The translations under genes were made by a program, and so were the position numbers. From Schistocephalus solidus (lineage: Eukaryota > Platyhelminthes > Cestoda > Diphyllobothriidea > Diphyllobothriidae): a stretch of DNA of 64,000 bases. Positions 5,300 through 61,113 of this stretch are shown here, in pieces. The notes beneath the pieces are model-generated. The model saw only the letters and a program-made list of their open reading frames with translations. It did no database searches and was not told the origin of the DNA. Numbering within the stretch: the first letter of the stretch is position 1; each line of letters opens with the position of its first letter. Where the stretch lies: positions 124,001-188,000 of the forward strand of contig WEDG01002553.1 in assembly GCA_017591395.1 (NCBI GenBank), written 5' to 3'.

Positions 5300-8200
5300 T
5301 GGCAAGGCAGCATACTATCGATTTAAAGATTTACCACATTCAAAAACTCTACATAGTTAATAATTAAGTGTTTGGAGACGCTTTTGACATAATTTGTAAT
5401 CTAACTTCTTAAAGTGGCAAAAAAGGGCACTAGGAACCTTGTATTCCCGAGACTCTGTGCTTAGTTCCAGGGAAATTCGATGTAGTGCTAAGTATGGTTA
5501 GGGTTTGGGTTGAGGTAGGGGATAGATTTAGTCGAAAGACTCGATGAAATTTACCCTTTCTGAAATTTTGCGCAAGGTCACATGTTTATGCGCATTTGGA
5601 TTAACTACGTCCTTAAGGTGTTCATGCTTAAGGTTATTTTTTTCGGATGGGGCAGTTATTTTTTAAATTGAAGTTTTTTAAACGAAATAGAAACTACACG
5701 TTATTAGGACAAAAATACACAGATTGATATTTTTATGATATATGGCAAGTATAAATTGAAATTTTATCACAACAAACCATAAGCCCAAGGAATTAAAAAC
5801 ATTTATGAAGTATGAAATTTTACCCTATAAGAGCGTGATAGCCAATATAGCCCTACGGCACAATAAAAACAGGTTAACCAGTTTTCGGAGATTGCATTAC
5901 CTGAAGCAAATTAGCTCCAAAGACTTGCGATCTCGGTTTCTTTTCTCTTACATAAGGAAACCATGAAGGTATAATAAAGGGATAGTGGGACGAAAACCTT
6001 CCATTTTTTATCCTATCGTTTTGGAATCTACCTCGAATGCCGCATCTAAGACAAAATTATATAGGCAGAGCAATAGAGGAAGAGATACGCTTTATTTTGA
6101 GAGCATCAATTCAAAAGTTCAAGTAAAAGAGATAACACTGAAAGAAAACAAAGGATAGATAGTGTTCGAGAGCTGCAACTGTCAGTATCACAAATGGACG
6201 TCAATGAATGAGTCTCGATAATTTGCGCCAGAGATTCTTCCGTCAAAATGCTGTGAACTTCGTATGCATATGACCTCACTTTTGTAGTTAGAATGAATGC
6301 AGAGTGGTGAAGTGCAGTGTCTAATGAGCAAAATGGGCCAACCCATGGACACGTAAGGAAATTCAGATATAAATAGGGGACTCAAAAATGGCGGTTCGAT
6401 TTCAAAAGCATTTATTGGATAAACTTCGTAAATTCAGCAGTTAGTGCTTATGCAACCAAGAACTGAGGCCAAATCCAAATGGCTTCAACTTTTGGCGTGA
6501 AGAACGTCTGCGCAACCGTCAGCCGTCTTCTTATACCATTGGACACGGTGCTCGCACAAAAACGGAAGTCACACACAACGCCCTTGGTCATGTGGCTCCG
6601 GTAAGAAACGTATAGGGGGCATCTCCCGGAGGCGGTGGAATTATGAAAAAAGCAATTTTGTCAGACTTAGCGGTGTGCAGAGGGCCAAGCACGCAGTAAC
6701 AGTGAGAGGGAACAACGTCTCTCGAGTCATGGCTCATTTGATGCTAATCAAAACTCGATAATGCGGAAATTCTCAAGATATTTGAGAACCACCTGAACAA
6801 CGAACTGCATGACGAGTGGTTGATAAATAATTTAGTCAGTCAAAATGCGTACCAATGTGAGCAATAATCAACGTTGTGTTGTATTTCGGTGGTGTCGTAG
6901 GCTAATACTTATCCTTGACTGAGAATGCAAATTCGTGCGTCATTATCTAGGAGAAGAGAGTGAGATTAACTCGAGAGTTTTACCAACCATGACTTGCCAC
7001 ACATGAAAATGATTTTGTCTCCAGGTAAATCAGAAGAAGCATGGGGCGAGTAAGCACATATTTCTCTAAACGCTGATTTTTCGTCGATTTTAAAAGTTTA
7101 GGTTTGCATATTTGTGTGATGTAGTGCCCTAAATTGCTGTAAAAACGTCAATTGGCAATTCCTCGTTCAAAGGTCTCGGTGTTTCTGTCTTACTGTCAAA
7201 CTGATATCCACAAAATATATATTAAAGCATATGGAAACATACATTTAATTGATAGAGTTTCTGGTAATGCGTGGTTTATAAACGGAACGAATATAAACTT
7301 GATATTTTGCAATATCCTAGTATTTATAGAGCCAGTTTATTTGTGCAGTAACATTCATAGAAGCGAGCAGGAAAGTAACAAAATAAAACATGACTTCCAC
7401 TTCAAGAAACAAGTGTTCGTTCATTTGTGGCAGAAAATGTATCACTAGTGCTCAGGGAAGTAAAAAACAACTAACGAAACGTCAATAATTTTACCTTGAC
7501 GTCACACATAATAAAGTTACAATAAACAGAAATCTGCCAGGAAAATACCCACTTAAAGCGTTTTTAAAGAGACAAATTAATCAGGAAAGTGTTTTTAAAA
7601 GTTATTTGAGACTGATGCTTTGTGAAAGTTTGTTGTGGATGGCCAGTTTTCTCGACAAGGAAGTTTTGGGTTCGAATGATTTCAAAGTATTACGCCTACG
7701 CCATTTGCATTAGAAAGGATCTCTCCGAACTTATCACCTCTGTAGATCTGACTTAACACATAGAACACTATCTATGTTTGGCAGGAATAAGTTTAAACCA
7801 CAGAAAATCATGACGTTGTCGGGAGATTTTTAACTTCACCGGAAATAGTGAAAGCGAAATTTGAAAGAAGGAATGTCCTTTCAGCATCTACACTATAATA
7901 AATTTAAGATTGCACATGACAATTTTATTTAAATTTGTTCATCACTGGCCGGCACGCCAATATTTACCCTAGGATAAAGTTTATTCCTATGCAGTTACTA
8001 TTGTTGAAATCAAGCGATAACCCGCTTTCCGTATTCATCCTCCTCTCAAAAATGTAGAAAAGGTAAACATACGACCAACTCTTGTGAAATCGTTCTGGAA
8101 ACCATACCTAAAATGAACGTTGCTTGCTAATGGTCAAAATCGATACCGAAGAATGCTTGAACTGCGAAATTTACTATCGGACTATTTTTAAACGTTATTC

Positions 8201-12952: not shown

Positions 12953-14737
12953 TCACAGGTTTGATAGAATGTGGTCAAGGAGAGCAAGAGCAACCAAATA
13001 GAGTGGCGCCATCCCAGTTCCTAAGAAGGAGAAAGTTTTTTTAAAAATTCATAAATATGTGCATAAGATAAAGCTGAATCTCTATTTATCGCAATGCTCG
13101 ATCTCAACATCAAATCTTACTTTTACGTACGCACTTGCTTACTAAAAACCTCAAGATGGTATAAACCTTAACATATGCATAAAGGGGCGCAGATCATCTT
13201 ACCTCTAGTTGCCATGCCACCCACATCTGGGGGTAGTCCTTTGGCATAACGATCAAATTTTTCGATATCGGCCAACGAAGGTAACTGTTTTAAGAATGGT
13301 ACAACACGCCGCACTTCCCCGTCTATTCGATTGGGTTTGTTAAGTCCCAGTAACAGGCAGACAAGTGGATAAACGTCAACTTGGTGAAAATTATCAATCA
13401 AGCCAACTTTTTTTATGCCTGGACCTGCCGCAACAAGAAAGGGATGCATGTCTGATTCCGAATTGTTGTATCCATGCATTCCCCCTAAAATTAAAAGCTG
13501 TTTTAAGTATCTTCTTCTGCAGCTGACAACTAACTGTTTCAAAATCAGAAAGGGAGAGACTTACGTAAATTCTCGTCATACGGTTTTGATGCGTCTGATT
13601 GGATCATCCAGCCTAGATCGGCAATGACAACAATATCGGGCACGCGCGCATTATTTCCATAATGGTAAGATTTCGGAATGTCCGCCTTTTTGTACACCGT
13701 GATATGTTGGAGGGATTTAAGTTTATTGCAGATATCATCAGCACTTGCTGAAACAAGATATTCAAGCGTGCAACACGGGGTTGACAAAAACTGAAATTAT
13801 ACATGGAAAAATTTACAGTTTGAAACTAAAATGCGCTAAATACTGCTTTTTCTTCAAATTGGAATTCGCATTTCATTAACTGAAATGTCAACATACGTTG
13901 TCCATTGTCATTCAACCAAATTCCTAGGTTGGCAGGCGATCCGTCAACTCCAAATTTGTAGTCTGAAGGGGAAAGCACTGAACTGACGTTGACGACCATT
14001 TTGTTACTAACTGCAGTCATTCCATGGTCACTTGTTACAATAACGTTGGGTTTTTCGCCGGAAAACTGTTCTTGTTCGATCCTTTGCATTAGGTAAGCAA
14101 TACCGTCATTTGTTTGTTCGATTGCATCGAGAACCTCTTTTGAATTTGGTCCAAATTTGTGACCAGCTGAATCCGGTTGATTGAAGTAAAGCATACAGAA
14201 ATTAACATCAGGCTGAGTTATCCATTCCATGATTCTATCCACTCTAAAGCGTAGAGTCGGGGCGCCGCTGTAGAGTCCAAAAGAGACATATTGCATTGTT
14301 CCATTATATCGGGCATCACTTCCAGGCCAATAAATCATTCCCGTTTTTCCCCCGTGACGCTGGTTGGTTATCCAAATTGGTTCGTTCCCGTTCGTTGTAA
14401 ACCACTTGGATTCCATATTCTTGATGGAATCCGTGTAGTGATACGTGTCATTTAGGTCTTTATCGTAGAAAGTGTTTCCCACCAGGCCATGCGTCTCAGT
14501 ATATCTTCCAGTGGCAAGAGAAAAGTGGGAAGGAAATGTCAACGAGAGCATGACACTTTGAACCTTTTTCGCTCTGAATCCCTGCTCGGCCAGCTTTAAA
14601 AATGCTGAGACATTTTTATTCGCGGCGATTGCTTTATCAATGTAGTCGTGTCTAAAGCCATCCAGCGAAATTAAAATAACTTTGCTTCCACAGCAAAGGT
14701 GCAGAAGCAGCAACAAGTATGTCAGTATTTTCAACAT
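12953..14737 (-). CDS. Ectonucleotide pyrophosphatase/phosphodiesterase, copy A (4 exons)
   Basis: Minus-strand gene; my exon model is 14737-13897, 13747-13565, 13484-13203 and 13020-12953, encoding 457 residues. All three introns (149, 80 and 182 bp) are GT-AG and phase 1. An N-terminal signal peptide (about residues 1-17, hydrophobic LLLLLHLCC) precedes the alkaline-phosphatase-fold domain. Family catalytic and zinc residues are all visible: D26 (SLDGFRHD), nucleophile T67 (LTFPSH), D189 and H193 (PDSAGHKFGP), D237 and H238 (TSDHGM) in exon 1, and H345 (GMHGYNN) in exon 3. Sequons at NVS, NDT, NGT and NVS suggest glycosylation. Exon 4 adds a short hydrophobic tail (PLYLVALALL), suggesting a GPI signal or membrane anchor. 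Length fits ENPP5/6-like proteins. Family role: hydrolysis of nucleotide or phospholipid phosphodiesters outside the cell; the substrate here is unknown. Confidence 0.9.
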
Positions 14738-14777
14738 CGTTCTTAATCTGAGTACATTGCGGGTGGTTTAGAGACGC

Positions 14778-16347: not shown

Positions 16348-16490
16348 ATATATATATATATAAAATCCCAGGTTTGCCACACTTGGGATTGGGTATGACT
16401 GGCTGATGACGGCTAATAAGCCAGAAATGGCCATTCCGGTCTCCCTTGTCTTTGTCGGTTCCACTCTATATATATATATATATATATATA
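16348..16490 (+). repeat. (TA)n runs flanking the type-2 ribozyme segment
   Basis: TA runs of about 7 and 12 units (16348-16362, 16467-16490) bracket a segment of about 104 bp that carries the type-2 hammerhead. Confidence 0.85.
16391..16445 (+). ncRNA. Hammerhead ribozyme, type 2 sequence
   Basis: Type I topology. Stem I outer GGG (16391) pairs with CCC (16443-16445), the internal loop is TAT opposite T, and the inner GACTGG pairs with CCGGTC (one G-U). Core CTGATGA is at 16403-16409. Stem II is GGCT-AATA-AGCC, then GAAA at 16424-16427. The minimal stem III is the self-complementary octamer ATGGCCAT, with predicted cleavage after T16435. The 10.1/11.1 position is a C-A mismatch, where a pair is usual. 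Self-cleavage of the RNA is the expected role, in processing tandem transcripts to unit length. Confidence 0.8.
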
Positions 16491-16641
16491 AGCCAAACAA
16501 GTGCGTAACACTCACTAATGTGGTAAGGATCTCACTCGATCCCATTTGTCCGCCCGCCAGTTACCTACCGGCGATAAACGAACGTTGTGTCATAGGACAC
16601 ATACCATATATATAGCACAAATATGTTGCTAAGAGTGCAAC

Positions 16642-16700
16642 AGGCAAGACGCAGACAGCTGTTTCACGGTCATTACCGATCATCAGTACATCATATGCCT
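16642..16700 (-). ncRNA. Hammerhead ribozyme, type 1 sequence, minus-strand copy
   Basis: Exact reverse complement of 16949-17007: the core boxes, stem I with its TAT/T internal loop, stem II and the palindromic stem III are unchanged. On this strand the core CTGATGA occupies 16686-16680 and cleavage is predicted after 16654. Confidence 0.82.
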
Positions 16701-16948
16701 TGTGCAGTGAGGTACATAAACAAGCCAAACAAGTGCGTAACACTCACTAATGTGGTAAGGATCTCACTCGATCCCATTGCACTCTAAGCAACATATTTGT
16801 GCTATATATATGGTATGTGTCCTATGACACAACGTTCGTTTATCGCCGGTAGGTAACTGGCGGGCGGACAAATGGGATCGAGTGAGATCCTTACCACATT
16901 AGTGAGTGTTACGCACTTGTTTGGCTTGTTTATGTACCTCACTGCACA

Positions 16949-17007
16949 AGGCATATGATGTACTGATGATCGGTAATGACCGTGAAACAGCTGTCTGCGT
17001 CTTGCCT
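16949..17007 (+). ncRNA. Hammerhead ribozyme, type 1 sequence, plus-strand copy
   Basis: Stem I outer AGGCA pairs with TGCCT, the internal loop is TAT opposite T, and the inner GATGTA pairs with TGCGTC (two G-U). Core CTGATGA is at 16963-16969. Stem II is CGGT-AATG-ACCG, then GAAA at 16984-16987. Stem III is the self-complementary octamer ACAGCTGT, with predicted cleavage after C16995. The 10.1/11.1 pair is a T-T mismatch. Conserved architecture with the type-2 copy despite different stem sequences supports selection on RNA fold. Confidence 0.82.
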
Positions 17008-17033
17008 GTTGCACTCTTAGCAACATATTTGTG

Positions 17034-17034
<1 letters not shown>

Positions 17035-17103
<69 letters not shown>
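17035..17103 (+). repeat. (TA)34 microsatellite
   Basis: Uninterrupted alternating TA of about 69 bp, the longest in the window, separating the ribozyme array from the next segment. Confidence 0.97.
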
Positions 17104-17106
<3 letters not shown>

Positions 17107-17541
17107 TCGGGTCTGACCCTAAAAAGTCATGTCCGAATCACCTGACTCCATGTCCTGCACTTAATAATTTCAGAAATTATTTCCCCGATTATTCTCTGGA
17201 GTCCATATACCAGAAACCGCATAGAGAACGCTGGGGGACCAACTGAGGAGCCGAACCCCTCGTTGGTGTGTCACGCACCAGCAGAAACATCGATGAAACA
17301 CGTTTTCTGGGCTTTTAGCTAGTACCTATGTCGGAAGTACGGTATAATGTCTTTTTCATATAAGATTCATACTACTTGAAATACTACTTGTTTGTAGAAT
17401 AGGATTACGTGGTTATTCCACAGTGGTTGATTGTCTTCGACCAAAATGCTCATTAAAAGTTCGGGTCTGACCCTAAAAAGTCATGTCCGAATCACCTGAC
17501 TCCATGTCCTGCACTTAATAATTTCAGAAATTATTTCCCCG
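17104..17541 (+). mobile_element. Segment with 83-85-bp terminal direct repeats between TA runs
   Basis: About 84 bp at 17104-17190 (TTCGGGTCTGACCC to TTTCCCCGAT) recurs at 17459-17542, a spacing of about 355 bp. Each repeat contains a hairpin GATTCGG/CCGAATC (TTCGG/CCGAA in copy 2) and a perfect hairpin AATAATTT-CAG-AAATTATT. The unique interior has a hairpin CCAAC/GTTGG near 17238-17265 and GGTG/CACC near 17264-17278. No protein is encoded. It may be 1.2 units of another tandem repeat or an LTR-like mini-element. Confidence 0.55.
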
Positions 17542-17579
<38 letters not shown>

Positions 17580-18369: not shown

Positions 18370-18430
18370 TGGCATCCACTGATGAACGCATACCAATCGC
18401 CATTCCGGTCCCCCTTGCCTTCGTCGGCAG
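18370..18430 (+). other. Decayed relative of the type-2 hammerhead segment
   Basis: CTGATGA at 18379-18385 is followed by CGCCATTCCGGTCCCCCTTGCC, which matches the 3' side of the type-2 element (GGCCATTCCGGTCTCCCTTGTC, then TTTGTCGG versus TTCGTCGG). The GAAA box and stem II are lost, so it should not cleave. Confidence 0.55.
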
Positions 18431-20205: not shown

Positions 20206-21985
20206 TCACATTTTTGACAGAAGGTGGTGAAGAAGCGCGAGAGCAATCAAGCATAGAGGTTTCATCCCATTTCCTAGGAAACAAAACGTTGCAATTAAAA
20301 TTCTAAATTATGCAAATCATATAAGAATGGATAACCTATTAGCAAAGTGCACTCAATAAACATCTCTGGTTGCTTACTAAAAACTTTATGACAGTTTAAA
20401 CCAAATATCTTAAATGGGCTTAAAATGACCACAGATCATCTTACCTCTAGTTGCCAGGCCACGTACATCTGCGGGCAATCCTTTGGCATATCGATTAAAT
20501 TTTTTGATATAAGCCAACGGAGGCAACTGTTTTAGGAATGGTACAACACGCCTCACTTCCCCGTCTATTCGATTGGGTTTCTCAAGTCCCAGTAGCAAGC
20601 AGACGAGTGGGTAAACATCAACTTGGTGAAAATTATCAATCAAGCCAATTTTTCTAATGCCTGGACCTGCTGCAACAAGAAAGGGATGCATGTCCGATTC
20701 CGAATTGTTGTATCCATGCATTCCGCCTGAAAGTAAAAGCTGTTTTCAGTATATTTTACATGGCTACCAAAGGACTCTTTTAGGGAACAAACTTACGCAA
20801 ACCGTCGCCAAACCCCTTCTTGGGGTCGGATTGAATCATCCAGCCTAGGTCAGCGATGACAACGATATCAGGCACGCGTGCATTATTTCCATAATGATAA
20901 GATTTCGGGATGTCTGCCTTTTTGTATACCGTCACGTGTGTGAGGCTATTTTTAAGTCTTTCGTAGATCTCATCAACACTTGCTGAAACAAAGTATTTAG
21001 GATTTTAACTCAGAAAGCACAAAAATGAAATTCTGCACGGAGCAATCATGGTGTAAAAATACAATGTCTTCAACGTTTATTTATCTTCGAATGAGCATTT
21101 GAATTTTGCGACGGAAAATGTTAACTTGCGTTTTCCATTGTCATTTATCCATATTCCGAGGTTGGCAGGTGATCCGTCGACTCCAAATTTGTACTCGGTA
21201 GGTGAAAGTACTTCACCAACGTTGACGACCATTTTGTTACTAACTGCAGTCATTCCATGGTCACTTGTTACAATAACGTTGGGTTTTTCGCCGGGAAACT
21301 GTTCTTGTTCGATCCTTTGCATTAGGTAAGCAATACCGTCATTTGTTTGTTCGATTGCATCGAGAACCTCTTCTGAATTTGGTCCAAATTTGTGACCAGC
21401 TGAATCCGGTTGATTGAAGTAAAGCATACAGAAATTAACATCAGGCTGAGTTATCCATTCCATGATTCTATCCACTCTAAAGCGTAGAGTTGGGGCGCCG
21501 CTGTAGAGTCCAAAAGATACATATTGCATTGTACCATTATATCGGGCATCACTTCCAGGCCAATAAATCATTCCCGTTTTTCCCCCGTGACGCTGGTTGG
21601 TTATCCAAATTGGTTCGTTCCCGTTCGTTGTAAACCACTTGGATTCCATATTCTTCGTGGGATTGGTATATTTAAATGTGTCATTTAGGTCTTTATCGTA
21701 GAAAGTGTTTCCAACTAAGCCATGAGTTTCACTATATCTTCCAGTGGCAAGAGAAAAGTGTGAAGGAAATGTCAACGAGATCATGACACTTTTAACCTTG
21801 TTCGCCCTGAATCCCTGCTCGGCCAGCTTTAAAAATGCAGAGACATTTCTTTCAGCCGCGATTGCTTTTTCAATATAGTCGTGTCTAAAGCCATCCAGCG
21901 AAATTAAAATAACTTTTCTTCCGTAGCAAAACTGCGAGAGCAACGCCAAGCATGTCAGAAGTTTAAACACCGTTCTCATTCTCAT
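20206..21985 (-). CDS. Ectonucleotide pyrophosphatase/phosphodiesterase, copy B (4 exons)
   Basis: Minus-strand tandem paralogue of copy A; exons 21985-21130, 20982-20797, 20726-20445 and 20273-20206, encoding 463 residues. All introns are phase 1 at identical positions to copy A (147, 70 and 171 bp). Intron 1 uses a GC donor (AAAC|GCAAGT) where copy A has GT. A signal peptide (LLTCLALLSQFCYG) is followed by the full catalytic set: D31, T72, D194, H198, D242, H243 in exon 1 and H351 in exon 3. Exon 4 encodes the hydrophobic tail PLCLIALALLHHLL and a stop. Two close ATGs (codons 1 and 3) are possible starts. Expected to be a secreted or surface phosphodiesterase; the substrate is not predictable here. 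Confidence 0.9.
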
Positions 21986-50689: not shown

Positions 50690-50933
50690 AGGACGGGGAA
50701 ATAATAGTGATAAACAGGTCTTTCTTATGGCAGACCCCATACATAATCAAGGTGGATTCTCGCCGAGACGGAGGACACAAAATACGATGAACCCAACTGT
50801 ACAGAGCTTGAATAATAAAAATAAGGCGCTCCAGAACTCGGATGACGACCACTCATCAGAACACAGCGTCGGCGGGATGGACACCAGTTCATCTCGGAAA
50901 ACAATGACAGAATCTAGTATTTAATCGCGCGAA

Positions 50934-51683
50934 ATGCGCATAAGTCTATATGGACGAGTTACCCAGTCTACATTGAGATGTTTGTATACCAATGCTCAGA
51001 GTCTCCTATCGAAAGTAGATGAACTCAAAGCATTAGTATCAGACCGAACCCCCGATATCGTTGCAAATACGGAAACGTGGCTCAAAGCCGCAATCGCGGA
51101 TAGCGAGGTTTCGATAGATGGATACCAACTTTTTCGAAAAGACCGAGAAAATAAAAAGGGAGGAGGAGTGGCCGTATATGTTAGGATAGGAATCTCGGCA
51201 GTCGAACGAGCACACTCCATCTTCCCTGAATATGAATTTCTCTGGATAAAGATTAAAAAGGAGTGTTCACAGGACCTACAATTCTTGACGATCTACAGAC
51301 CACCGAACATTCCAAGTGCAGCTGATGAGTCCCTCCTCCATTTGCTCAAGGAAGTAGCAAGTCACCAAGAGGTGCTTATTGCTGGAGATTTCAATGCACC
51401 TATAGTAGACCAGGTTAATCTGACAGTTGATGGTGCACCAACTTCCTTCGGCCACAAGCTAATGGATCTCACTCTCGACCAACCTCTGGTACAGAAGGTT
51501 AACATACAAACGAGATTTAGAGAGAACCAGAGAGCAAATTGCCTGGACCTTGTATTTACGAAGGACTTCTCTAGCATTGATGAAGTTTATTCTATTGCAC
51601 CCCTCGGTAAGAATGACCATAGTATGCTGATGTGGGATTACTCACTTTATTCTCAGCGCCAGAATGGAACGGAATGCAAGTGA
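50934..51683 (+). pseudogene. Family D LINE endonuclease, open frame intact
   Basis: 249 residues without a stop. Motifs: LRCLYTNAQSLLSKVDEL; DIVANTETWL (catalytic glutamate); RKDRENKKGGGVAVYV; LTIYRPPN; IAGDFNAP (catalytic D and N); NCLDLVFT; PLGKNDHSMLMW (catalytic D and H). In LINEs this domain nicks target DNA to prime reverse transcription. It is the best-preserved domain of the window but is cut off from the RT by a stop at 51683 and a deletion. Confidence 0.85.
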
Positions 51684-54948: not shown

Positions 54949-55339
54949 AGTTGGGAAACCTTCTAACCCTCCAGCAGCTACCATACATACCCAAAATTTC
55001 CTTAGCAATTATCCCAACCAATCAATTTCTCAGGCTGCCCCATTATTTAACCCTATCCCTTACGGTACCAGTTTTCCAAAACAATTTGTTCCGTTTTCAA
55101 ATCTTATTCTCCCCCCATATTATTCCAATATTCCTCAAAATCCTATTTATAGGCCTCCTATTTTCGCTAACGCAGAAAATAGCCTTCCTCTCAATGGATA
55201 CCACCCAAATATGTTTCTCTACAATAATCCTAATTTAGTTAGCAGTAACAGCTTAACTAATTGTAGACAGCAGCCATTTTACTTTCCGCCAGCACCTATT
55301 TCTCTACAGTTTACTTCCCACCCACCAAGTCTTCCTTTT

Positions 55340-58300
55340 TTATAAGTAACGATAACCCTAGTTTGGATACTCGAACTACGCTAGATATCATATTACTTAA
55401 TGCTAGATCTGTTTTAAATAAGATGGCGCAACTGAGAGCCATTGCTTTCGAGCTAATGCCCGATGTTTTATGCGCAACTGAATCTTGGACCCATCCCTTA
55501 ATTTCCGACTCTTTGCTTGTCATAGACCAGTACGATCTCTACCGTCAAGACCGCATTAGGAAGCGTGGTGGTGGTTGTCTTCTCTATATTAAAGCTTCAT
55601 TTAAGAACTTCCCGTTTGATCTAGATGTTACGTCATTCTCTGGTAATTACTGCTTTGCATCCACTATCCTGTCGTCCAGGCAAAAGGCGATTCTCGGATG
55701 TATTTACAACCCATCTAATTCATCATCCGATGATGATGCAAAACTTTGTGAAATTTTTAAATTGATTTCGAAGTCAAATTTTAACATTAGAATAATCGCT
55801 GGGGACTTTAATTTTCCAGAAATTGATTGGATTTCAAACGTTTGTCCACCCAGATTTCAGCATTTCCTCGATACGATTAATTTTTCTAATTGGTCCCAGC
55901 TTGTCCGTTCTTCAACGAGAGAAAAGCATATTTTAGACCTGATTTTCACAAACGACATTGCTCCCCTCTTCGTTGATTTAGAACAGGGTCTCTTCCAACG
56001 TGACCATACACTAATTCACTGTTGCCTTCCGATTGTTTCATCGAAAAAGGTTAGTGCCGTTCGTACCTATCATGCTTTTGACCTCGCAGATATGAGCTTA
56101 ATTAGTAACTTTTTGACTCATTGGACTGGCAGAATCTCTCCTCCATGAACGACGCAGCAAGTCTTTGTGACTTCGTGTCAGTCGTTTCAAATAACATCCT
56201 GAAGCTTGTGCCAACCAAAATAGTCAAGCCCTACGTCTCGGAATCAACCGTTCCTCACTTTCTTTTGCCACGACTAAAGAAATTGAAGAAGCAGTTGAAA
56301 GATCAATATACTAGTTCGTTATCTGTACATCTAAGGATCGCAGAGATTTTTGAATTAGCCTCTAAGATTCGTCTTGCACATGACAGACAGACGGAATCTT
56401 GCGCACTCAGTGAGCCAAACTCTGCAAAATCTGTTGCTCAACAGTTCCGCCGTCGATCCTCTTCTAAACGAGGTTATGAAATTCCTCCATTACTAAATGA
56501 AGACAAGAACTTCGTTCTGGAATACTCTGACAAGGCAGAACTGTTTAGTGCGTTCTTTGCAAATCATCTTACGATGGAATCTGAACCGGTTCCGACGTTT
56601 CAGGCATGCTCATTGAATGTTATCAGCACTATTGATTTCTCCTTAGAACTAATTCGTAAGCAAATAATTCGTCTGAAAAACTCGCACTCTTCGGGAACTG
56701 ACGGTATTCCAAACTCAGTTATTAAGAGAGTGCCGAGCTTTCCCCGATTGCTTAGCCATGTATTCTCAGTTTAATATTTTTAAACGGATTCTTTCCTGAC
56801 TCATGGAAGACATCTATTATTCTTCCTGTCTTCAATTCGGGATCTCGTTCGGACGTAAATAATTATCGAGGCGTTCACAAAACCCCGGCTCTCGCAAAAC
56901 TTCTTGAAAAAATTATTTTTTAATCAAATTCTCGACTATTGCCAAGAAAATAACCTTTTAAGCGACTCACAATACGGTTTTCTACCTGGGAGATCATGCG
57001 AAGTGTGTCACTTAGCTTTTCTTAACCTCGTCACTTCCCTTCGTAACGAGCAACAGTCAGTGGTTGTGATCTACTTTGACCTGAGCAAAGCCTTTGACAA
57101 GGTACCGCACAGACGTCTTCTAGTGAAACTGGAAGCCCTCGGCATCCGGCCTCCTCTCCTTGACTTCATTGGTTCCTACTTGTCTAACCGCAGCCAGAAG
57201 GTCCTAGTAGGTAATAGCTATTCGACGCCTCAACCGATCACGAGTGGCGTTTTTCAAGGCACCTTTCTAGGTCCCCTTCTCTTCATTCTGTACCTTAACG
57301 AAATTTCAAATTTACTCACAAATTAACAAAATTTCGTTTACGCTGACGATCTCAAGTGCATTTATTCATTTTCTAAAGACACTGCTAATAGTTGCGTTGA
57401 CAAAATCAACACTGATCTACTTATGCTCTCACGTTGTAGCTGTACTTGGCAGATGGAATTTTCTCCATCCAAGAGCAGTTTCATGTGTTTTGGCCCCGCC
57501 AAGCTTCCTGGACCCCTAGTATTTCAAAATAGTACACTTTTAGAACGATCAACCATAAAAGACTTAGGTCTAAGTTACACGAATAAGCTAGCATTATCGC
57601 CTCATGCAGATCGAATTTCTGCAAAGGCTGCACAGATATGTGGTTTTATATCACATAATTTCTTCCTTCCGGAAATAAAGTTAAACCTATACCGCATGTT
57701 TGTTCTTCCTATCCTCGAATACTGCTGTCCCCTATTTGGGCTGATGAACGCCTCTGACCGCAGTAAGATTGAAAAAGTTCAGAGGGTTTTTACTCGAAAA
57801 CTATTTTCTCTTCCTGGATCCAGTTTCTCTTATACGGATAGATGCCAGTTAGCAAACATTTAATTTCTGTGGGTTAGAAGACTCGAAGCTGGTCTCTGCT
57901 TCCTGTTTCACGTTAATTCTAGCCCAAATATCCCACGAATTAACGCTCTCACTCAGGTAAATCGACCCTATGCCACTCGTTATTCCTCCATGATCATTTC
58001 ACCACCCCTTAGCTCCACAACCAACCGGTCTCAGTTTTTTGCCTCCAAATATGCTTTCATATGGAATAATCTACCACTGCAAATTAGGTTGTCGTCTACA
58101 TTAGCTATTTTCGAAAACCAAATTACGCAAACATTTAACTTCGAAAGATATAAAGTCCTTATAGTCTGCTTCTTTCCCAAACTCGCAACTTTTGGATTTT
58201 GCAAAGGGTCCTCCTGGTATTTGAGGCAGCTCCCTTGATATTATATGGGTCTCTAATTATATTTTCCATCATCCTCTGCAGAGTCAATCTTTGCATTCAC

Positions 58301-59012: not shown

Positions 59013-61113
59013 GAATAGTCGCCCCGCTGGTTAACAAGAGAACTTAACAGGCAGCTAAAGAAGAAGAATATAAAATGGAAGGTATTCAGGCAAACAGGGT
59101 CAGCAGAGCATCTCAAAGAATTTTTTCATCAAAGAATCGCTGTTAAAGAATGATCCGTCAGGCTAGGAAGAACTATGAACCAAGAATTATTCAACAGCCT
59201 GAATATAAACCAAAAACTTAATTCCATTCTATGAATAGCCGACTAAAAAACAAGGACCCAGTAGCAGTACTCATGGATGGGAATGGTGTTGAAGTCGTTG
59301 AAAATTGCGACAAAGCCGAGTACTAAGGTCAGTTTTTGCCTCGGTTTTCACTAGCGAACTGGAACTTCAGCTTGACCACGTCAACAGTGCTGTTATAGAC
59401 GCCCGTCCAGTGCTTGAATATATAATCTTCCAGGAACCTCTCGTGGAACTAGAACTGCGAAATCTGAAAAAAGCGAAGTCATTTGGTCCGGATGATATAC
59501 CGGCCAAGTTCTTGAAATAACTGGCCAGAGAACTGTCCAAACCACTAGCGCATATATTTAATTCGCCATTTGAATCAGGGAAACTGCCATCCGAATGGAA
59601 GGCAGCAAATATATACCCCATATACAAGAGTGGAGCTCGATCGAATGTCAACAATTATCTGCCTGTCAGCCTTACCTCCATTTGCTGTAAAATAATGGAA
59701 TCAATAATCAAGAAGGCAATCATGAAGTTCCTTGAGGAAAACCAATTACTCTCAGATCTCCAGCATGGCTTCAGACAGAATCGCTCCTGTCTTTCTAGTT
59801 TATTACTCTCAACAGAGCAGTGGACTCGTGCACTGGACGAAAATGGTAGGGTTGACGTCATACACACTGATTTCAAGAAGGCGTTTGACAGTGTCCCAAC
59901 AAACGTCTCATCTACAAATTATCTGAAATTGGCATAAGAGGAATGCTGCTGACATGGATCGCAGACTTTCTTACAGATAGATTGCAAACTGTGTGCGTTG
60001 ATACCTCGAAGTCAACACCTACTCCGGTTCTAAGTGGTGTCCCCCTAGGCTCGGTATTAGGGCCGTTACTCTTCTTAGTGTACATCAACGACTGTGTCGA
60101 CGACCTGGATTGCAGCGCCACCATGTTTGCAGAGGATGTTAAATTGTGGAGGTACATCAGATCTGATTTCGAAAGGCACGCACTTCAAGAGGATCTCAAC
60201 CGTCTTAGCAGCTGGTCTGCTCGTTGGCTCTTAAATTTTAACGTTGGGAAGTGTGTGGTCCCAAGACTGCGTACCAGAAGGACCAGTGAGGAGGATGATT
60301 CTTACCAATACATTCACAATGGGCAGCCCCTTTCAATTGTTGAGGAACAGAAGGACCTCGGTGTTCTAATAAACACCTCACTTAAACCATCTGCACAGTG
60401 TTTAAAGGCAGCTAAACGCTCTACACAGGCCTTATTTGCGCTCAGACGTGGATTTGTGCAGATTGATAAGGAATGCTTCCAAAAAACCTACGGAGTATTT
60501 CTTCGATCTCACTTGGAATATGCCATCCAGGCCTGGCGTCCGTGGTTTAAGAAGGATTATCTACAGCTGGAACGAGTGCAGGCGAGGGCTACGAAGATGT
60601 TCAAGAATCTACTTCATCTGCCTTACGAAGCCGGACTGGTTGAACTTGATTTGTTTCCTCTAAATTACAGGCAACTACGCGGTGACCTCATCCAAACCTA
60701 CCGGATTGTCAGAGGCCGCGCTTGTGCCCTAGAATTTGCTGTCTTCTTCGAATTGGCTGGGACGGAACATCTGTGGGGTCATCCCTTTAAACTGCAGAGG
60801 AAGTTTGTCCACACGGAAGTCCGTGGGAACGCCTTTTCGCAAAGGGTCGTTGGAGCATGGAACGGACTCCCTGACAAGGTGGTCCTTTCAGAAACTGTTG
60901 ACACATTTAAATTCAAACAAGATACTCATTTTTTGAGAAACTATTGTCAATATAACGAAGATTGTGTAAACAGTGGCAGGTTGCGCCTGGCCCACACCTA
61001 TCGATGACCCTTCATTTTTATTTGTCAGATATATCACTGTAAACGTTCGTACTATTGACATTTTTGCATGTGAATAGGGAGCCCAAGGGCGAAAGCCTAC
61101 TTCCCACAATAAA
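59013..61113 (+). mobile_element. LINE family B, longest RT copy, 5'-truncated
   Basis: Starts inside the endonuclease-RT linker (IVAPLVNKRT) directly after the C1 tail. The RT is at 59305-61007: LRNLKKAKSFGPDDIPAKFLK, QHGFRQNRSCLSS, THTDFKKAFDSVP-like HTDFKKAFDSVP (motif A), LSGVPLGSVLGPLLF (motif B) and FAED at about 60127 (motif C, second aspartate changed to glutamate). Thumb is EYAIQAWRPWFKKDYLQLERVQ, and the C-terminus ends NSGRLRLAHTYR at 61007. A frameshift lies near 59930 and stops near 59325 and 59519. The 3' end is CAATAAAGTGACT. Confidence 0.85.
59943..61007 (+). pseudogene. Family B RT C-terminal half, 354-residue open frame
   Basis: Longest open frame of the window. It covers palm motifs B and C, thumb and the conserved C-terminal region (WGHPFKLQRKFVHTEVR; RVVGAWNGLPDKVVLSETVD). 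The normally invariant FADD reads FAED, which should impair metal binding. It lacks the N-terminal palm because of the frameshift near 59930. It is a retroelement, not a host gene. Confidence 0.85.

Follow-up and report, generated by a model that had tools for sequence, protein, structure and literature searches.

How does a short repeat that carries a hammerhead ribozyme come to lie in a genome as two half-arrays of opposite orientation, joined head to head inside a (TA)n tract? This question is raised by a 64,000-nt stretch of the genome of the cestode Schistocephalus solidus (assembly GCA_017591395.1; 603,688,359 bp in 8,019 contigs), comprising positions 124,001 to 188,000 of contig WEDG01002553.1 (C2118:124001-188000) and referred to here as the window. 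The repeat unit, family A, is 232 nt long. Our reading, which we hold with a probability of roughly 0.7, is that these inverted arrays are insertions of a metazoan retrozyme of the kind lacking long terminal repeats (non-LTR), whose circular RNA would have served as template for both strands of a broken (TA)n tract, with the two complementary DNAs (cDNAs) then joined.

Unit positions are numbered from u1, the first base past the predicted cleavage site. The left half-array of the window copy (16491..16778, ribozyme sense minus) comprises 288 nt or 1.24 units, running from u108 to 232 and on from 1 to 163, and the right half-array (16777..17034, ribozyme sense plus) comprises 258 nt or 1.11 units, from u14 to 232 and on from 1 to 39, and continues into a TA tract belonging to the A unit itself. 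A sequence-only reading had proposed a 232-bp head-to-tail repeat that flips near 16778 into an inverted copy, and this description holds: direct copies are offset by 232 nt (16491/16723 and 16777/17009), inverted arms lie at 16606-16778 / 16871-17043 (173 nt, 100% identical) and at 16481-16640 / 16777-16936 (160 nt, 98% identical), and the sense 5' ends meet in a head-to-head joint at 16777/16778. This joint shows a 2-nt microhomology when read by eye; its scripted score is -8, owing to a nearby mismatch at u23 (16786), which is the sole difference among multiply covered unit positions, ends running into TA excepted. The left junction, 16490/16491, abuts a (TA)n tract (16467..16490) at unit position 163/164, the second putative initiation site, and the right junction, beside the tract at 17035..17102, lies within the unit's own UAUAUAUAU (u40-48), the first. 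Since (TA)n lies on both sides, any target-site duplication is masked. Two further tracts lie left of a neighbouring element B (16348..16361) and right of a neighbouring element C (17542..17567), and these four, the only (TA)n tracts of at least 12 nt in the window, form one cluster bounding B, A and C.

Each half-array carries one type I hammerhead, at 16641..16700 on the minus strand (predicted cleavage between 16654 and 16653) and at 16949..17008 on the plus strand (between 16995 and 16996), and the two are identical, as first proposed, with cleavage predicted after GUC. A third, overlooked in that first reading, is a divergent type I hammerhead of family B on the plus strand (16389..16448), with a C.A at the base of stem II, the palindrome AUGGCCAU and predicted cleavage after AUU. 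A strict type I descriptor, which was written after the candidates had been seen, finds these three in the 64 kb, all within 620 nt, and has 0 matches in 200 dinucleotide shuffles of the window; a relaxed descriptor adds one weak match with a broken core (minus 55033). The description of the A ribozyme as intact-looking stands for the core boxes and stems I to III, with two corrections: the base of stem II is a U.U mismatch, and stem III has only 2 bp, formed within the 8-nt palindrome ACAGCUGU. As candidate partners for a tertiary contact between loops I and II, there are an internal loop UAU/U in stem I and a loop AAUG.

In both families the basal pair of stem II is mismatched and stem III is formed by an 8-nt palindrome. 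Fifteen of 17 pairs are standard in both A and B, with 8 altered on both sides, and 32 of 34 cells are paired (94%) as against 27-44% when the sequences are slid by 1-3 columns; this comparison has just two sequences behind it, the same two from which the structure was derived. In modelled homodimers the double-hammerhead fold comes within 0.9 kcal/mol of the optimum for A (-41.1 versus -42.0) and within 1.8 kcal/mol for B (-44.7 versus -46.5), whereas the monomer hammerhead fold lies about 5 kcal/mol above its own optimum. It is therefore likely, on these predicted energies, that both ribozymes act as dimers, which has also been reported of motifs from newt and axolotl (PMC7229834, PMC6155905; comparisons with the literature, here and below, refer to the available parts of the cited texts).

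Family A is abundant in the genome. The 33-nt ribozyme core occurs, with up to 2 mismatches, at 1,869 places (957 + 912), as compared to 0 for the reversed core in the same search, and 232-bp-spaced arrays are found on many contigs. Array sizes span 0.3 to 37 units, the longest (L018) being spaced mostly by 232 bp, and sense 5' ends fall at many unit positions. Full-length units number 231 in the fetched loci; 134 of them score 100%, and another 85 score from 98% to below 100%. Per-position difference is 0.27% over the 60-nt ribozyme and 0.50% over the other 172 nt, placing this 60-nt segment 7th of 232 for low variability. The refuting outcome named in the first reading, a core no better conserved than its flanks, is not what we see, though the 13 core positions taken alone give only P = 0.07. 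Since units of one array are not independent, we regard this as modest support. The earlier proposal of a retrozyme-like element derived from circular RNA is the best reading of these copy numbers, of the 232-bp arrays on many contigs, of half-arrays longer than one unit and of the conserved ribozyme region. No exact copy of the 33-nt core was found in viral and prokaryotic contig collections, a negative that, given those collections, carries little weight.

The inversion at this locus had been noted as an association worth describing. The association is real, and it goes further: insertions built in this way recur, and they are tied to (TA)n targets and to two preferred 3' ends. We mapped 54 fetched stretches plus the window. 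Fifteen (L009-L023) are all the loci except C191:540 among the first 100 core matches listed, all exact and unselected for inversion; five (L024-L028) were picked for resemblance to the window, 20 (L029-L048) were drawn from matches with 100% identity to the left half of the window copy, and 14 (L049-L062) were picked for a junction of (TA)n with u164. Across the 54 stretches, A arrays mostly terminate in (TA)n. Inverted arrays occur in 7 of the 15 unselected loci, that of L014 being old and degraded, and in 7 of the 20 in L029-L048, a count that leaves out a separate old inverted piece in L041. When both strands are represented in a mapped row, the order is minus then plus, with sense 3' ends outward, in 30 of 31 cases; the exception, L030, has plus and then minus arrays facing across a TA tract, which we read as two insertions. 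Together with L015 and L059, which the script had split or shortened, these 30 rows give 32 inverted insertions.

Both ends are resolved in 25 of the 32, and 22 of these pair u164 (u162-165) with the TA tract (u38-47); 20 of the 22 are flanked by (TA)n on both sides, and L012 and L047 have no called tract on one side. The other three resolved insertions pair u164 with u136, u207 or u66 (L009, L036, L046), so that no resolved inverted A insertion has the same site at both ends (0/25). The seven with unresolved ends are L014, L025, L027, L041, L049, L050 and L058. Under independence, 22 mixed ends out of 22 would have a probability of about 5×10−7, or about 1×10−5 once we leave out the window, in which the pattern was first seen, and three loci chosen for showing it (L024, L026, L028). 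One-directional arrays in L009-L048 use the same two sites, ending 11 times at the TA tract and 6 times at u164 (the plus array of L030 among them). Genome-wide, the (TA)n|u164 junction is found at 238 places (117 + 121), with 1 for the control. Two of the loci behind the TA-tract tally of one-directional arrays, L020 and L021 on contig C219, represent a single A insertion, doubled when its surroundings underwent inverted segmental duplication (the copies share 95.6% identity over 3.1 kb).

These two sites are also those at which a TA end would best anneal: the best (TA)5 site on the circle is u40 (10/10 with a G.T wobble), and the best outside the TA tract is u164 (9/10), in the same phase as u40. 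At the other side of each half, where the sense 5' ends meet, 22 of the 32 joints were scored for microhomology. At least 2 nt were found in 12 of these (13 if the by-eye reading of the window's joint is used), as compared to 15% by chance; every scored joint links a different pair of unit positions, and six have extra bases or a score below zero. Such joints look as microhomology joining would be expected to leave them.

What the DNA itself shows is the arrays with their (TA)n flanks, two preferred 3' ends that are used in mixed pairs, the orientation rule and the joint microhomology, and these features suggest the following course of events. A tandem copy of A elsewhere in the genome would be transcribed, its hammerheads would cut out 232-nt monomers, probably as dimers formed through the palindromic stem III, and a host ligase would circularise them. 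A reverse transcriptase (RT)/endonuclease, most likely that of a resident Penelope-like element (PLE), would open a (TA)n tract on both strands, and each TA 3' end would prime on the circle, one at u40-48 and the other at u164-173. Both cDNAs would travel round the circle, halt at various points and be joined 5' to 5' (in sense), often through a few nucleotides of microhomology. The outcome would be an inverted array whose sense 3' ends both point outward into (TA)n; priming by one strand only would give a one-directional tandem array. Mixed ends would be explained if a single circle offers two sites and each broken end occupies one of them. Cleavage, circularity, the identity of the enzyme and the presence of both primers on one circle are what we infer from the arrays.

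Open reading frames near A arrays offer a candidate for this enzyme. A frame in locus L038 matches RVT_1 (E = 1.1×10−5; score 25.7 versus a cut-off of 29.6) and one in L048 matches GIY-YIG (E = 0.0025; 18.5 versus 22.6), whereas a frame of similar look in L045 has no Pfam match; beyond Pfam, the likeness to Penelope lies in putative motifs. The putative PLE of L038 (4264-6283) lies between (TA)n tracts and adjoins A and B arrays. Its 3' end is repeated in inverted, head-to-head orientation (95% over 272 nt), and only the right end is longer before the TA, by 31 nt (6211-6241), or by up to 38 nt when TA-like bases are not counted as aligned. This is close to what has been published for Penelope, in which repeats most often meet head-to-head and one of the inverted ends may bear a tail of 31 bp (PMC3846280). 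A published PLE protein cleaves AT-rich DNA on both strands and extends both, the tail corresponding to the segment between its two RT start sites (PMC11167929). By analogy, we infer that a PLE-type element may mobilise retrozyme A.

A more specific version of this proposal is that the two cut (TA)n strands prime at roughly opposite sites of a single RNA circle, that a dimeric Penelope-type enzyme rolls both cDNAs, that the same one-tail rule explains the Penelope head-to-head layout, and that Penelope is the machinery mobilising animal retrozymes. We offer this version tentatively, holding its chances to be somewhat short of even. If it were true, the head-to-head layout of Penelope, left unresolved in the available text of PMC3846280, would be explained by the one-tail rule seen here, and Penelope elements would be the mobilising machinery of animal retrozymes.

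Several observations weigh against copying from both strands of (TA)n onto a shared circle. The 3' ends of the one-directional arrays of L018, L029 and L037 lie outside TA, and the array of L023 extends past the edge of the fetched stretch. One B array (L012) and one C array (L036) appear to use the same site at both ends. The A ribozyme, for all its core boxes and stems, has the U.U at the base of stem II; the covariance-model check proposed for it gave no hit, no Rfam hammerhead model matching at the gathering threshold or at E<=10, although the authors on metazoan retrozymes are not seen to demand such recognition. Rfam found nothing at gathering threshold anywhere in the window, and the only match of the B ribozyme is Hammerhead_HH9 (E = 0.029; 17.2 bits, under the gathering score of 52). 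The PLE frames are provisionally identified from Pfam scores below cut-off plus motifs. In the published PLE the RT start site is not homologous to the cut DNA (PMC11167929), which argues against a simple annealing model, and the two strands are alike in their RT start site (PMC11167929). Finally, when the two halves were compared over 3,604 positions in 27 inverted loci, 2 differences were shared and 103 were one-sided, a comparison in which gaps were counted, 3 loci had no overlap and L050 and L053 contributed over half of the differences.

The last two points would suit priming from the two broken ends on two separate circles, or RNAs. However, this would leave unexplained why the same site is avoided at both ends, and since the recurrent variants are mostly confined to single units, the variant test favours neither one template nor two. 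We consider two templates unlikely, and put at the same level the possibility that a linear multimeric read-through RNA served as template, with ribozyme activity incidental. Such a transcript could come from the tandem arrays, which reach 37 units; against it, the range from 0.3 to 37 units with 5' ends at many positions fits a circle, and the ribozyme region is conserved above the rest of the unit, although neither point is decisive.

Very improbable, by comparison, is a snap-back in which one cDNA would fold over and serve as its own template for the inverted half. Self-priming has been proposed for the head-to-head Penelope repeats (PMC3846280), and the window's inverted arms are near-perfect. 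However, snap-back predicts identical end sites because the copied-back half must stop where the template began, and same-site ends are absent from the resolved insertions; in the window, moreover, the left half does not stop where the right half ends but carries on across the TA tract as far as u163. Differences found in one half only also weigh against it, insofar as they predate insertion, and we set it aside on the end counts. Slightly less probable still is ordinary satellite DNA inverted by recombination, with the ribozyme as a relic: long homogeneous arrays exist, and newts and schistosomes have satellites that bear hammerheads (PMC6155905, PMC8490949), but random inversion, which predicts both joint polarities, is set aside by the one polarity of 30 of 31 rows and the mixed resolved ends, by the 22 scored joints, which never repeat a pair of unit positions, and by the location of the insertions inside (TA)n tracts.

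The window copy is probably a dead insertion: with exactly one hammerhead per polarity, and no tandem ribozyme pair in either orientation, it should not release a 232-nt monomer in cis, and folding prediction turns its transcript into a hairpin longer than 160 bp. The likely source copies are the long one-directional arrays. Stops interrupt all six phases of the 232-nt circle, so that a coding circle was rejected and no RT plus GIY-YIG reading frame is present in the A unit. The unit has a GC content of 45.3%, and the circle folds at -67.9 kcal/mol, with 7 of 200 shuffles equally low, which makes it mildly stable at most.

Among the matches listed, B, C and another family resembling B turn up in the flanking sequence of many other A arrays. 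In the window, the B fragment (16365..16466, plus) is bounded by (TA)n on both sides, with 16383-16455 corresponding to u251 through u20 of a 303-nt unit. B units, 303-309 nt long, bear hammerheads, the strict descriptor giving 27 B hits of 15 different strings in the fetched loci (B-like variant counted in). The one B copy tested contains a tRNA domain (RF00005 at L012:1177-1233, 32.9 bits, over the gathering score of 29); ARAGORN found no tRNA, and family A has no Rfam tRNA match. With a tRNA domain and a type I hammerhead, B is possibly a retrozyme driven by RNA polymerase III. A B-related hammerhead variant with GGCTGG/CCAGTC in stem I adjoins A arrays in L016, L024, L025, L029 and L037, spaced by about 308 nt in L037. 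A decayed B relative is present in the window at 18379..18427 (plus), consisting of CTGATGA and 33 nt that resemble the 3' part of the B ribozyme at 88%, with the core GAA missing and no TA flanks.

Element C (17106..17543, presumed sense plus) has a 354-nt unit present in 1.24 copies with a 100% identical 84-nt direct repeat, and is likewise (TA)n-bounded. No hammerhead was found in it on either strand with up to 2 core mismatches, nor any convincing Rfam family, and the strict descriptor retrieved no C hammerhead in the fetched loci. Either C has an unknown ribozyme or targeting of the tract needs none; a search for new self-cleaving motifs could start here. C recurs in other loci, also in inverted form. 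Several B and C arrays are, like those of A, (TA)n-bounded and minus-then-plus, and by eye most of them use two different ends, at about u146 and u30 in B (L026, L033, L038, L047) and at about u84 and u243 in C (L010, L022, L054); in the C array of L015 the end pairing is not legible by eye.

As first noted, the cluster lies between two ENPP genes: PF01663 is found in open reading frames 13826-14767 and 21077-21985. The two ENPP-like genes (13135-14749 and 20370-21982) are duplicates, 85% identical over 1.6 kb. Frames of non-LTR retrotransposons with RVT_1 or endonuclease domains are also present in the window, at 2090-2617, 50925-51683, 55267-56148 and 59889-61007.

How animal retrozymes return into DNA is an open point in the literature, with PLEs only a "strong candidate" in the available text of PMC7229834. 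The A insertions, many of them young and in one simple target, record strand, start site and end joining; the mixed-site rule makes specific models testable through junction counts, and the small size of the A circle and its (TA)n target would allow the reaction to be set up in vitro. Among the open-licence titles listed, none describes inverted hammerhead arrays of this kind, a weak negative.

Compared by description only, the schistosome hammerhead repeats (PMC4918200) resemble family B in combining a type I hammerhead with a tRNA domain, and differ from family A, in which no tRNA domain was found (PMC8490949, PMC4918200). The metazoan non-LTR retrozymes (PMC7229834) share with A a type I hammerhead, a tandem unit of 150-450 bp, a GC content below 50% and a high copy number; among them, axolotl HHR_Amex2 has the same oddities, a 2-bp stem III with a tetraloop and a U.U at the base of helix II. 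The available text on these retrozymes does not describe (TA)n targets, two preferred 3' ends or head-to-head arrays, and the word "inverted" is absent from its main text. Comparable features are found in PLEs (PMC3846280, PMC11167929), which have head-to-head ends, AT-rich targets, two alternative 3' ends, hammerheads, and both strands cut and extended. A differs from them in coding for no protein, in its 232-nt unit and in start sites about half a circle apart, as against 30-40 nt. Judged by this analogy, A behaves like a PLE in its layout but is not one.
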